Assembly (NCBI RefSeq): GCF_024397855.1
Contig: NZ_CP073343.1
Coordinates: 3,906,001-3,970,000, forward strand
Direction: 5' to 3'
DNA from: Marinomonas rhizomae
GTDB taxonomy: Bacteria; Pseudomonadota; Gammaproteobacteria; Pseudomonadales; Marinomonadaceae
DNA length: 64,000 nt
Numbering within the stretch: position 1 is the first letter of the stretch; each line of letters begins with the position of its first letter. The notes below the pieces were generated by a model. The model was not told where the DNA came from and ran no database searches. It saw nothing but the letters and a program-made list of their open reading frames with translations. Below, in pieces: positions 7,295 to 19,454 of the stretch. The position numbers were made by a program, and so were the translations under genes.

Positions 7295-8299
7295 TTAGCC
7301 ATTAAACACGGGGATGATTTCTCTGCCGTATTTGGCGATGATTTCTTCTTCGTCGCCGCTGTCTAGGTAGATGTTAAACTGCGTGGTTCCCGCTGCTTCT
7401 AGGTCTTTAATCTTAGCGATGTGATCTTCTGGTGTACCCAATACACAGAAGCTTTTCACTATGTCTTCGGTAATGAAATCCAAGAATGGATTGTCGCTTT
7501 GGCCATGTTTTGAATAATCGTAACCACGGCGTTTTTCGATATAATCCGTCAAGCTTTTTGGCACTAAACCGGAGTCGCTGCCGTATTTTTCAACGATGTC
7601 TGCTACGTGGTTACCCACCATGGCAGGAAACCATTTAGTGTGTTCGATACAATAATCCATGTCGCCGAAGTAAGCAGGCGCGGCGGCTTGGACTTTAAAG
7701 TTAGACATATCACGTCCAGCAGCTTCACCAGCCGTAATAGATTGATCTTTAAACCATTTTACTAAATCTGGATCACCAATCTGCAATATCAAACCATCGC
7801 CTACTTCGCCTGCTGTCGCCAAGGCTTTCGGGCCATAAGCGCCAATCCAAACAGGCAATTCATAGCCTGTCGCCCAAGGCAATTTTACTGGTTCTGGGCA
7901 TTCGCCATATTCCACTTCTTCACCGCGCACCATGGCTTTTACCTTGGTGGTAAATTCCGCGAGGCGCGCTAGCGTCGCTGGTTTTTTACCCATGACACGC
8001 ATGGAAGAATCGCCACGACCAAGGCCGATGTCGAAACGACCATTACTTTGATGCGCCAAGCTCGCGTACAAGCTGGCAGACAAAGACCAATCACGAATAT
8101 TTGGGTTAGTCACACAAGGGCCAAAACGCATAGTTTTGGTGTGCTCCATACACATTGCCATGGCCACAAATGACTCACGCCAAAGAATGTGAGAATCGTA
8201 AAACCAACAATAAGTGAAGCCAGCCGCTTCCGCCTGACGAACAAGATTTCGTGCGCGATCTGGGCTGACGAAGCCTTTAAACGTAATACCGAATTCCAT
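7295..8299 (-). CDS. F420-dependent LLM-family oxidoreductase (CPS_4043-like)
   Basis: A 334-residue TIM-barrel protein of the bacterial luciferase-like superfamily. Opening residues MEFGITFKGFVSPDRARNLV, the block FGPCVTNPNIRDWSLSASLYASL and the motif GRFDIGLGRGDSSMR fit the family of putative F420-dependent oxidoreductases named after Colwellia CPS_4043, related to methylene-tetrahydromethanopterin reductase. The family's substrate is not known to me. It is the last gene of the F420 operon, 185 nt below npdG, with its own strong ribosome-binding site (GAGGAACACATT before ATG). Inference: it is the principal user of F420H2 here, probably acting in pyrimidine or hydantoin catabolism given the shared regulator sites. 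Confidence 0.85.
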   Translation of the reverse strand: MEFGITFKGFVSPDRARNLVRQAEAAGFTYCWFYDSHILWRESFVAMAMCMEHTKTMRFGPCVTNPNIRDWSLSASLYASLAHQSNGRFDIGLGRGDSSMRVMGKKPATLARLAEFTTKVKAMVRGEEVEYGECPEPVKLPWATGYELPVWIGAYGPKALATAGEVGDGLILQIGDPDLVKWFKDQSITAGEAAGRDMSNFKVQAAAPAYFGDMDYCIEHTKWFPAMVGNHVADIVEKYGSDSGLVPKSLTDYIEKRRGYDYSKHGQSDNPFLDFITEDIVKSFCVLGTPEDHIAKIKDLEAAGTTQFNIYLDSGDEEEIIAKYGREIIPVFNG

Positions 8300-8393
8300 A
8301 ATGTGTTCCTCTTGTGATTATGTTTTTAATAGATTTTTTTATTAACAGTTAGATGGCGCTTTTAGGGCGTTACGAGCAAAACCAAGACAAGGC

Positions 8394-8452
8394 AAAAACA
8401 GACTAGAAAGCGGAGTTTATAAGTCATAAATGAGCATTTCGAGTCTGTTTTT
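8394..8452. repeat. Intergenic inverted repeat between npdG and the LLM gene
   Basis: A 16-bp arm at 8394-8409 (AAAAACAGACTAGAAA) pairs with 8437-8452 with one mismatch, around a 27-nt loop. Flanking sequence looks like a dispersed intergenic repeat rather than a terminator. On the minus strand a T-run belongs to the arm itself, so partial attenuation between npdG and the oxidoreductase gene is possible. Confidence 0.7.
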
Positions 8453-8484
8453 AACAAAGTATTGGTGAGCGCAGTAGCCATAAA

Positions 8485-16361: not shown

Positions 16362-16462
16362 CTAATGATGGCTAATAAATGATGATGACCAATAAATGAA
16401 GAAAGCAAAGAACCATTGAATGAAAACAACCCCATAATCAAAAAATAGAAGAGGTGGCAACA

Positions 16463-17947
16463 ATGACCAGCAAGTCTGTTAAACAAGGTGAGTTTTATGA
16501 GCTGGAGGTCGACAGCGATCTCCAGCAAAGTTCAGCGTATAACGACGATTTAGCGCCAACCAACGTAAAAGACCGCACATGGAGCAAATGGAATATCGCC
16601 GCGTTATGGGTGGGTATGTCGATTTGTGTGCCAACTTATACTTTAGGTGGTGTATTAACGGCTTATTTTGGGCTGTCGGTAATGGAGGCGTTATTCACCA
16701 TTCTTATCGCTAACATTATCTTGCTGGTGCCACTAACACTAAACGCCTACCCTGGCACTAAGTTCGGTATCCCTTTTCCTGTGTTATTACGTTCATCCTT
16801 TGGCATGATTGGCTCTAACTTCCCCTGTTTAATCCGCGCCTTGGTGGCCTGTGGTTGGTTCGGTATTCAAACCATGTTCGGTGGTTTGGCAATTCATTTA
16901 TTCTTGTCTGCCGTGTCTGATGGTTGGGCAAGTTTGGGTGGCGTCGGCGAGGTGATTGGCTTCTTCATTTTCTGGGCGCTGAACATGTACGTGGTGATCC
17001 GTGGTGCAGAGTCGATTAAATGGATGGAAACCTTATCCGCGCCATTATTATTGCTCGTTGCCATTGGCCTAATGTTTTGGGCAAGCGACAAGGTATCTTT
17101 TACTGAACTACTGGCCACACCAGCAAGCCGTCCTGAAGACGCTGGTTTTATGGGGTATTTTCTAGGCGGTCTAACGGCCATGGTTGGCTTCTGGGCGACC
17201 TTGTCGCTGAACATTCCAGACTTTAGCCGCTATGCAAAATCACAAAAAGATCAGGTCATTGGTCAGATTGTTGGTTTGCCTATCACCATGTTCTTCTTCG
17301 CCGCTTTGGGCGTGGTACTCACCGCAGCATCGACAACGCTGGTGGGTGAACCCATTTCAGATCCGATTTCGTTGATTGGTAAAATCGATAGCCCATTTTG
17401 GGTAGCCGTAGCCATGATATTGATCGTTATTGCGACACTGTCTACCAACACCGCTGCTAACGTGGTTTCCCCTACCAATGACTTTCAAAACATTGCACCA
17501 AAGCTGATTAATCATACTCGTGGCGCTTTGCTCACAGGCTTGATTGGTATTTTGCTGATGGGTTGGGAATTACTCAAAAAGTTAGGTCTATTGGAATCTG
17601 ATGTCAGTGTTGAAGGAATGTATTCCAACTGGCTGCTGGGCTATTCAAGCTTACTTGGCCCTATCGCTGGCATCATGATTGTCGATTATTTTTTGATAAA
17701 ACGTCAGCATTTAGATTTGGTTGCACTGTATACCAAAGACAGCCTTTACCCTGCCTTCAATAGCGCAGGTCTAATTGCTTTTGCGGTTCCTGTATTGATT
17801 ACGCTAGTGGCGCTGAATATGCCTGCGCTTGGCTGGTTCTATAACTACGGCTGGTTCACTGGCGCATTTACTGGTGCGATTGTGTACTTCGTACTTGCCA
17901 ACATGCAAACCGCTTCTGCCACTCAAACTGACGCGTTGCAGTCTTAA
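16463..17947 (+). CDS. NCS1-family nucleobase/hydantoin/allantoin transporter
   Basis: A 494-residue inner-membrane transporter of the nucleobase:cation symporter-1 family with about twelve hydrophobic segments. Family motifs include [20 protein letters not shown] near the N-terminus, [34 protein letters not shown] and [15 protein letters not shown]. The set overlaps uracil, hydantoin and allantoin carriers, so substrate is inferred from the neighbours. Start chosen at ATG 16463, because GAGG stands eight bases before it; an in-frame GTG nine bases upstream overlaps that ribosome-binding site. It lies between the amidohydrolase and the dihydropyrimidinase. Confidence 0.9.
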
Positions 17948-18011
17948 CCATCATTCTCTCAGCGGCGCCTTACGGTGCCGCTTATATTTCTCAACTGGAA
18001 AAGGACGACAC

Positions 18012-19454
18012 ATGAGTAGTCTATTAATAAAAGGTGGGACTATCGTCACCCACGAAGAAAGCTTCAAAGCAGATATTCTTTGTAAGGGCAACAAAATCGT
18101 CGAGCTAGGTGACATCAGCGTACTGCCAAAAGATGTTGAAACCATTGATGCCACAGGCAAACTCATTATGCCTGGCGGGATTGATCCACATACTCACATG
18201 CAGTTGCCTTTTATGGGCACTGTCGCAAAAGATGACTTTGCTTCGGGCACCGTCGCTGCGTTGGCAGGCGGTACCACGACGATAATCGACTTCGTGATTC
18301 CCAATCCTCAGCAGTCATTATTAGATGCCTACCATCAATGGCGTGATTGGGCGAAAAAAGCCCATTCAAACTACACCTTTCATGTGGCGATTACCTGGTG
18401 GGACGATACCGTCGCAGAAGAAATGAATATTCTGGTACGCGATCATGGCGTAAACAGCTTCAAACACTTCATGGCTTACAAAAATGCCATCATGGCAACC
18501 GATGACATTTTGGTGTCGAGCTTCACCAAATGCTTGGAGCTTGGCGCTATTCCCACTGTTCACGCCGAAAATGGTGAGCTGGTTTATCACTTACAAAACA
18601 AACTCATTTCGGAAGGCATGACGGGGCCAGAAGCCCATCCGCTGTCTCGTCCTTCTTCTGTGGAAGGCGAAGCGGCTAACAGAGCCATTAGCATTGCCAA
18701 CACTCTTGGCGCGCCAATTTACCTTGTACATGTTTCCACCGAAGAAGCGGTCGACGCCATTCGCTACGCAAAAGATCACGGTCAAACCGTATTTGGCGAA
18801 GTGCTGGCGGGACATCTTACCGTGGATGAAAGCGTTTATCAGAACCCAGATTGGGCAACGGCCGCAGCGCATGTAATGAGTCCTCCGTTTAGACCCAAAC
18901 ACCACCAAGACGCGCTTTGGAAGGGTGTACAAGCGGGAACATTGCAAACCACCGCCACCGACCATTGCGCTTTCTGTGCGGAACAAAAAGCCATGGGCAA
19001 AGACAATTTTGCACAAATTCCTAATGGCACAGCGGGCGTAGAAGAACGCATGATGGTGTTATGGGAAAAAGGCGTCAACGAAGGCAAAATCACCATGAAT
19101 GAATTTGTCGCCTTAACCTCGACTAACACAGCCAAAATCTTCAACATGTATCCAAACAAAGGCTGCATTCGTGTTGGGGCTGATGCTGACTTGGTGATTT
19201 GGAACCCTGCCGCAACTAAAACGATTTCCGCGAAAACCCATCATTCGAAAATCGAGCACAGTATATTTGAAGGCATGGAAATCCATGGCGTACCAGAAAC
19301 GACTATTTGTAATGGCAAACTTGCGTGGCATGACAATGTAATACTTACCAAATCTGGCGATGGGAAATACATAGATCGTCCAGCTTACGCACCTTATTAC
19401 GAAGCCCTAAGAAAACGCAAAGAACTGAACAAACCCAAAGCAGTTGTGCGTTAA
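18012..19454 (+). CDS. Dihydropyrimidinase / D-hydantoinase
   Basis: A 480-residue cyclic amidohydrolase that opens dihydrouracil, dihydrothymine or 5-substituted hydantoins. The binuclear metal site is visible: His60 and His62 in GGIDPHTHM, the carboxylated lysine Lys151 in NSFKHFMAY with catalytic Tyr156, and downstream HAENGELV and [12 protein letters not shown] histidines. The C-terminal TDHCAF motif contributes the Asp. ATG 18012 follows AAAAGGACGACAC, and the length is normal for the family. The frame stays open for 61 codons upstream, overlapping the transporter gene, without similarity. This is the second enzyme of reductive pyrimidine degradation (PydB role). Confidence 0.93.

Follow-up and report, generated by a model that had tools for sequence, protein, structure and literature searches.

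Two described bacterial routes of pyrimidine breakdown lie closest to the system considered here: the Rut pathway, which is oxidative and dependent on flavin mononucleotide (FMN), and the reductive PreTA/PydA pathway (Escherichia coli preTA and the bacterial pyd operons). In Marinomonas rhizomae (contig NZ_CP073343.1, positions 3,906,001 to 3,970,000 of the forward strand; this whole stretch of 64,000 nucleotides is called the window), genes for a luciferase-like monooxygenase (LLM)-class oxidoreductase and for synthesis of coenzyme F420 lie beside genes for dihydropyrimidinase and a carbamoyl amidohydrolase. We consider it probable (roughly 0.84) that the genes of this region together make up a full reductive route of pyrimidine catabolism based on F420. 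Excerpts from two papers describe the background on the side of the coenzyme: a 2021 review calls it an unanswered question why Proteobacteria synthesise F420 and reports that only traces were detected in Paracoccus denitrificans (PMC8498797), and a 2022 paper, in which P. denitrificans CofC was assayed and 2-phospholactate was best, states that the physiological role of F420 in Gram-negative producers remains unknown (PMC8764529).

In the proposed pathway, an NCS1 permease would import uracil and thymine, and the LLM protein (family TIGR03842) would use F420H2 to reduce the 5,6 double bond, giving dihydrouracil or dihydrothymine. Dihydropyrimidinase would then open the ring, and the carbamoyl amidohydrolase would yield beta-alanine or beta-aminoisobutyrate together with NH3 and CO2, with NpdG remaking F420H2 at the expense of NADPH. 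A RutR-like TetR protein would govern both operons through TTTACC-N4-GGTAAA-type operators, and coenzyme synthesis would therefore be switched on along with the pathway. Of the reductive route, steps 2 and 3 have their genes here, and step 1 (uracil to dihydrouracil) is the one that we assign to the LLM enzyme, which would be a dihydropyrimidine dehydrogenase dependent on F420H2 by function, and outside PreTA/PydA by family. The analysis shows the gene families, the absence of PreA from this genome, the conserved linkage, the co-occurrence, the palindromes before both operons and the fold; we infer the substrate and reaction of the LLM protein, F420 as its cofactor, the ligand of the regulator and its binding to the palindromes, and the specificity of the transporter. 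An earlier note on this DNA had proposed an F420H2-dependent reduction step in pyrimidine or hydantoin catabolism; all the genes that it named were found in the window by family-model scores and the coordinates of open reading frames, and the genomic evidence, from several directions, supports its proposal well.

The LLM gene (7295..8299, minus strand; proposed F420H2-dependent uracil/thymine reductase) encodes a member of the TIGR03842/CPS_4043 family, at 522 bits, the cut-off being 295.45 (here and below, a protein over cut-off has a bit score above the curated cut-off of its NCBIfam family). PF00296 is its only domain, and the DHO_dh domain (PF01180) of PreA/PydA was not found in it. Nor does the protein look like Mer, the F420-dependent methylenetetrahydromethanopterin reductase: it reaches 126.2 bits with TIGR03555 (cut-off 348.7), and the column of Mer Glu6 holds Thr or Cys in the aligned TIGR03842 proteins (we take the position from the title of structure 8qq8, mutant E6Q; the residue is presumably catalytic). 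An FMN-dependent, RutA-like pyrimidine oxygenase would also have the LLM fold, but the best 15 structural matches of the protein are all F420 enzymes, the operon encodes F420 synthesis and NpdG, and oxidative ring opening would leave the dihydropyrimidinase redundant; RutA-type oxidation, weakened by the family scores and these structural matches, is extremely improbable. Our survey of the host genome for F420 enzymes, which covers the LLM fold (PF00296), returned three other LLM proteins; among NCBIfam matches to E 1e-30, two of them fit the MsnO8 family best (over cut-off) and the third the FMN-dependent MupA/Atu3671 family (under cut-off). TIGR03842 itself is rare across the class, since only the host, out of 274 class-wide sample genomes, has a protein over cut-off.

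We compared 80 named loci (the best 80 of 265 relatives, drawn by alignment of 16 TIGR03842 proteins), whose content was scored with the window proteins, and with neighbour proteins met on the way, as queries. The nearest by LLM protein are from Marinomonas species, with identities up to 100%. At least three F420 genes are found in 73 of the 80 loci and a related tetR in 70 (14 of these below 40% identity, rounded); the amidohydrolase is found in 59, the NCS1 permease in 44 and the dihydropyrimidinase in 34, all 34 within the 59 that have the amidohydrolase. If omega-aminotransferase, MmsA, CodA and CodB are counted too, 70 of the 80 loci carry one pathway gene or more. The looser figure of 72 was given up, as L070 and L072 rested on aldehyde dehydrogenases at only 30–31% identity. 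Among the ten loci without a pathway gene, seven (L021, L024, L067, L070, L078, L080 and L085) are truncated by a contig end within or just before the cluster and L072 starts 16 bp before the LLM gene; contig ends do not explain the absence in L081 and L083.

The order of the genes is not fixed: the amidohydrolase gene is divergent in Marinomonas, lies on the same strand at most 400 bp behind the LLM gene in 25 loci, and closes a single run NCS1-dihydropyrimidinase-cof-npdG-LLM-amidohydrolase in Herbaspirillum (L054). This arrangement, recurring across many genera in varied orders, is beyond chance, and the retention of neighbours despite rearrangement argues for a shared function. One could still suppose that the LLM protein and F420 serve some other redox task, that an unrecognised enzyme does the first step and that only shared regulation keeps the genes linked; the LLM class covers many roles, and our search for a first-step enzyme in the host genome covered PF01180 and PF00296 only. 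But the LLM gene adjoins dihydropyrimidinase, amidohydrolase or NCS1/MmsA genes even where the cof genes lie elsewhere (L055, L065 and L074), and in each of the 62 loci L025–L086 (loci picked by LLM similarity) the LLM protein is the best conserved protein of the cluster, which makes this alternative very unlikely.

Several features of the relatives may be recorded here. cofH was found in nine out of nine genomes (those of the seven loci without cof genes and two others); in the genomes of L074, L065, L055 and L083 (L126–L129) and of L072 it lies in a frame of ∼816–864 amino acids, as large as a CofGH fusion protein of the FbiC type. The amidohydrolase and the permease of L035–L086 fall into at least two classes of identity to the window's proteins (∼70–80% and ∼40–58%) and so seem exchangeable, as the LLM protein stays at 76% or more.

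The earlier note had seen no PydA/PreTA gene in the window. The host genome is one contig of 4.37 Mb with a completeness rating of 100%, and the absence holds genome-wide: PF01180 has one full match in it, a quinone-dependent dihydroorotate dehydrogenase, and no PreA (a second, weak match is a 257-amino-acid frame that looks HisF-like by eye), and the PreA model NF006183 matched none of the 48 genomes of the genus, host included, at E 1e-50. A preTA homologue elsewhere in the genome, which would have told against the proposal, was thus searched for with both models and not found. Among the 80 loci, the search for PreA covered 49 genomes. Five of these have PreA over cut-off (Epibacterium, Leisingera, Thalassovita, Tritonibacter and Limimaricola, genera that we take to belong to the Rhodobacteraceae and hence call Rhodobacteraceae-type); P. 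denitrificans (L084) and 43 further genomes do not. The expected anti-correlation between LLM and PreA is accordingly seen in the host, in the 48 genus genomes and in 43 of the 49 LLM-positive genomes, and fails in five of the remaining six, which carry both.

A check proposed by the earlier note, whether the LLM and cof genes co-occur with the dihydropyrimidinase, gives a very strong association. In another, overlapping set of 49 LLM-positive genomes, 48 have a protein over cut-off for TIGR02033, versus 10 of the 274 class-wide genomes (host included). Within the genus (48 genomes) the LLM gene is found in 24 and the dihydropyrimidinase in 25, both in 24 and on the same contig in 22. These counts ignore kinship, and linked genes are acquired or lost as one. 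The exception in the genus is G340, whose contig begins inside cofC, so that cofE, npdG and the LLM gene would lie past its end; no LLM gene was found elsewhere in that assembly.

The tetR gene (14221..14868, minus strand; TetR_C_3, the YcdC-like C-terminal region, 160.5 bits) sits between the minus-strand F420 block and the plus-strand hydrolase block. The closest solved structures of its product are RutR, but the scores with the RutR models are under cut-off (TIGR03613, 176.2 versus 368; NF011584, 157.9 versus 230), and for this reason we call it RutR-like only, a name already given to it and apt on both counts. Two RutR-type palindromes are found upstream of cofG, TTTACCATTTGGTATA (13994..14009, one mismatch to TTWACC-N4-GGTWAA) and TTAACCAAAAGGTTAA (14111..14126, exact), and a third, TTTACCTTTTGGTAAA (15075..15090, exact), upstream of the hydrolase operon, before the amidohydrolase gene. 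They resemble the E. coli RutR site, whose consensus served as our first search pattern; with up to three mismatches it has 10 sites in the window versus 3.5 expected, three of them in the cluster region.

Of the 70 loci with enough sequence, 63 have a site of the form TTDACC-N4-GGTHAA (at most one mismatch; 44 exact) in the 300 bp before cofG, whereas 100 mononucleotide shuffles gave 0.49 such loci on average and never more than 2; after removal of nine loci (Herbaspirillum, the Rhodobacteraceae-type loci and L080, titled Nocardioides) the figure is 60 of 61. Across the genome the motif by itself lacks specificity (six exact sites versus five for the backward control), and so it is the conserved position before cofG that counts. 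Open reading frames near three of the four other exact sites (L130–L132), judged by eye, have no evident pyrimidine role, and the fourth (L135) gave no match to the cluster and neighbour proteins, the only queries used there. The RutR-like protein would bind these palindromes. In Alteromonas (L031:11287-13718, similarly L032 and L066) a protein that resembles a TonB-dependent receptor by eye is encoded after the LLM gene, with its own exact RutR-type palindrome upstream, and a related frame is found in L033, L040, L041 and L056; this suggests that outer-membrane uptake is part of the Alteromonas regulon.

All five F420 biosynthesis genes are present on the minus strand, each over cut-off: cofG (FO synthase subunit 1; 12820..13956; TIGR03550, 456.9 versus 213.35), cofH (FO synthase subunit 2; 11618..12823; TIGR03551, 500.2 versus 374.1), cofD (2-phospholactate transferase; 10659..11618; TIGR01819, 296.8 versus 257.45), cofC (2-phospholactate guanylyltransferase-type; 9943..10659; TIGR03552, 145.3 versus 105) and cofE (F420-0:glutamate ligase; 9177..9950; TIGR01916, 252.7 versus 180.65). 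They are followed by npdG/Fno (NADPH:F420 oxidoreductase, proposed to recharge F420; 8485..9180, minus strand; TIGR01915, 199.6 bits versus 149.8), in the order cofG-cofH-cofD-cofC-cofE-npdG with neighbours overlapping end to start. The spacer between npdG and the LLM gene (8300–8484), unlike the overlapping cof genes, is 185 bp long and contains a 39-amino-acid frame.

On the plus strand, the N-carbamoyl amidohydrolase of the hydantoinase/carbamoylase family (15120..16361; proposed beta-ureidopropionase) has 414.4 bits versus 204 with TIGR01879, and its structural relatives include the N-carbamoyl-beta-alanine amidohydrolase 8c46 (E 5.8e-121, rank 4). The NCS1-family permease (16454..17947, plus strand; proposed uracil/pyrimidine importer) has 321.3 bits with PF02133 and, with TIGR00800, 335.9 bits, slightly under the cut-off of 353.1. 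The dihydropyrimidinase (18009..19454, plus strand; TIGR02033, 586 versus 393.25) has the D-hydantoinase/dihydropyrimidinase structures 5ykd and 5e5c as its top solved relatives. A terminator-like hairpin between the last two genes (17961–17982; nine pairs, seven of them G-C) may be due to chance, as a scan of the region gave 16 such sites versus 13.9 expected.

The genes around the cluster bear on the substrate. A cytosine deaminase is found in some Halomonas-group and Marinobacter loci (L048, L062 and L071) and a cytosine-permease-like protein in these and in L073 and L076 (37–38% identity to the Marinobacter one in four of the five), between or adjoining tetR and the dihydropyrimidinase gene; family models back both proteins in L071 and the deaminase in L048, and the genome of L064 has an additional codA beside a dihydropyrimidinase gene (L143). 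An AptA-type omega-aminotransferase flanks the cluster in 18 loci, MmsA (at least 60% identity) is found in 19 and PntA/PntB in 12, and a few loci carry alanine racemase, D-amino-acid dehydrogenase or alanine dehydrogenase. Such neighbours represent steps before uracil, steps after beta-alanine or beta-aminoisobutyrate, and a supply of NADPH for NpdG.

The LLM enzyme might instead reduce a different cyclic ureide or a modified pyrimidine (thymine alone, a methylated pyrimidine or an unsaturated hydantoin), with the dihydropyrimidinase acting as a hydantoinase: the two hydrolases are one family, the sole solved relative found for the permease is the hydantoin permease Mhp1, and the presence of the cluster beside a PreTA cluster in Rhodobacteraceae-type genomes could mean a different substrate. 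We regard this as unlikely, since codA/codB, the RutR-like regulator with its operators, and the omega-aminotransferase and MmsA of beta-amino-acid metabolism fit uracil and thymine better, and hydantoins would yield alpha-amino acids. Of the two substrate classes in the original proposal, pyrimidines are thus favoured, and hydantoins as main substrate are weakened and kept as a rival.

Some observations weigh against an F420-dependent pyrimidine pathway. Five of the six Rhodobacteraceae-type LLM-positive genomes have PreA and at least two dihydropyrimidinases, so that in these five the LLM protein fills no gap. Nine class genomes have a dihydropyrimidinase and no LLM protein over cut-off. In five of them PreA is encoded no more than ∼5 kb from the dihydropyrimidinase gene, but the other four lack PreA as well (one, G314, has a sub-cut-off LLM match), and a dihydropyrimidinase alone is therefore no proof of a reductive pyrimidine route. 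L021, a metagenome-assembled genome with the LLM gene, gave no dihydropyrimidinase match. The first-step enzyme missing from the host is PreA; first-step enzymes of the barbiturate and URC routes were not searched for. The LLM protein probably uses F420, as judged from its nearest fold and the co-encoded cof genes rather than from contacts. Finally, the LLM enzyme of mureidomycin biosynthesis gave no detected product in vitro, according to an excerpt of its description (PMC10714638).

In Thalassovita and Leisingera the PreTA clusters (L123 and L124) likewise contain tetR, amidohydrolase and dihydropyrimidinase genes, and thus one downstream set travels with either reductase; Rhodobacteraceae-type alphaproteobacteria may use both LLM and PreTA. 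In L067, L078, L080 and L085 (position 1 to about 450), and also in L070, the contig starts ∼400 bp upstream of cofG; these Rhodobacteraceae-type assemblies have a second dihydropyrimidinase-amidohydrolase-NCS1 set on another contig, a few kb from the contig start in L146, L148 and L156, and there may be hard-to-assemble sequence between the two sets.

With less confidence, we lean towards a broader view: F420 here would be a dedicated, inducible coenzyme, made when pyrimidines are available and essentially for one reaction, the reduction of uracil and thymine; a single-domain enzyme would have replaced the iron-sulfur PreTA, and the module would have spread through marine gamma-, beta- and alphaproteobacteria. 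If the cluster works as proposed above, it would account for the presence of F420 synthesis in some Proteobacteria, and reductive pyrimidine breakdown would gain a further kind of reductant, and C=C reduction a simple enzyme. The proposal can be checked in cultured species such as P. denitrificans, whose cluster (L084) includes dihydropyrimidinase, amidohydrolase and NCS1 permease genes, in a genome with no PreA over cut-off.

Among the matches listed in the open-licence PMC literature, we found no description of an F420-dependent pyrimidine catabolic route, as the earlier note had also stated. The chemistry is plausible because there are precedents, known to us from excerpts: an F420-dependent LLM enzyme has been proposed in uric acid clusters of Chloroflexota (PMC12507026), and SSGG-03002/NpsU of the mureidomycin/napsamycin clusters is described as an oxidoreductase of the F420/FMN type that reduces C5-C6 in uracil (PMC10714638), although it belongs to secondary metabolism, acts on a uridyl peptide and is likened to our protein by description, not by sequence. 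Mer differs in that the Marinomonas protein is far under its cut-off and has Glu6 replaced. With the Rut pathway (RutA-G/RutR) the cluster shares a RutR-like regulator and a RutR-type operator, and RutA is likewise an LLM-fold enzyme, one that acts on uracil; unlike in that pathway, hydrolases for a dihydropyrimidine follow. The PreTA/PydA pathway has the same downstream hydrolases and, in the two Rhodobacteraceae-type genomes above, the same neighbours down to a RutR-like tetR, but the first enzyme of the Marinomonas cluster is a single-domain LLM protein without DHO_dh, encoded in an operon with F420 biosynthesis.

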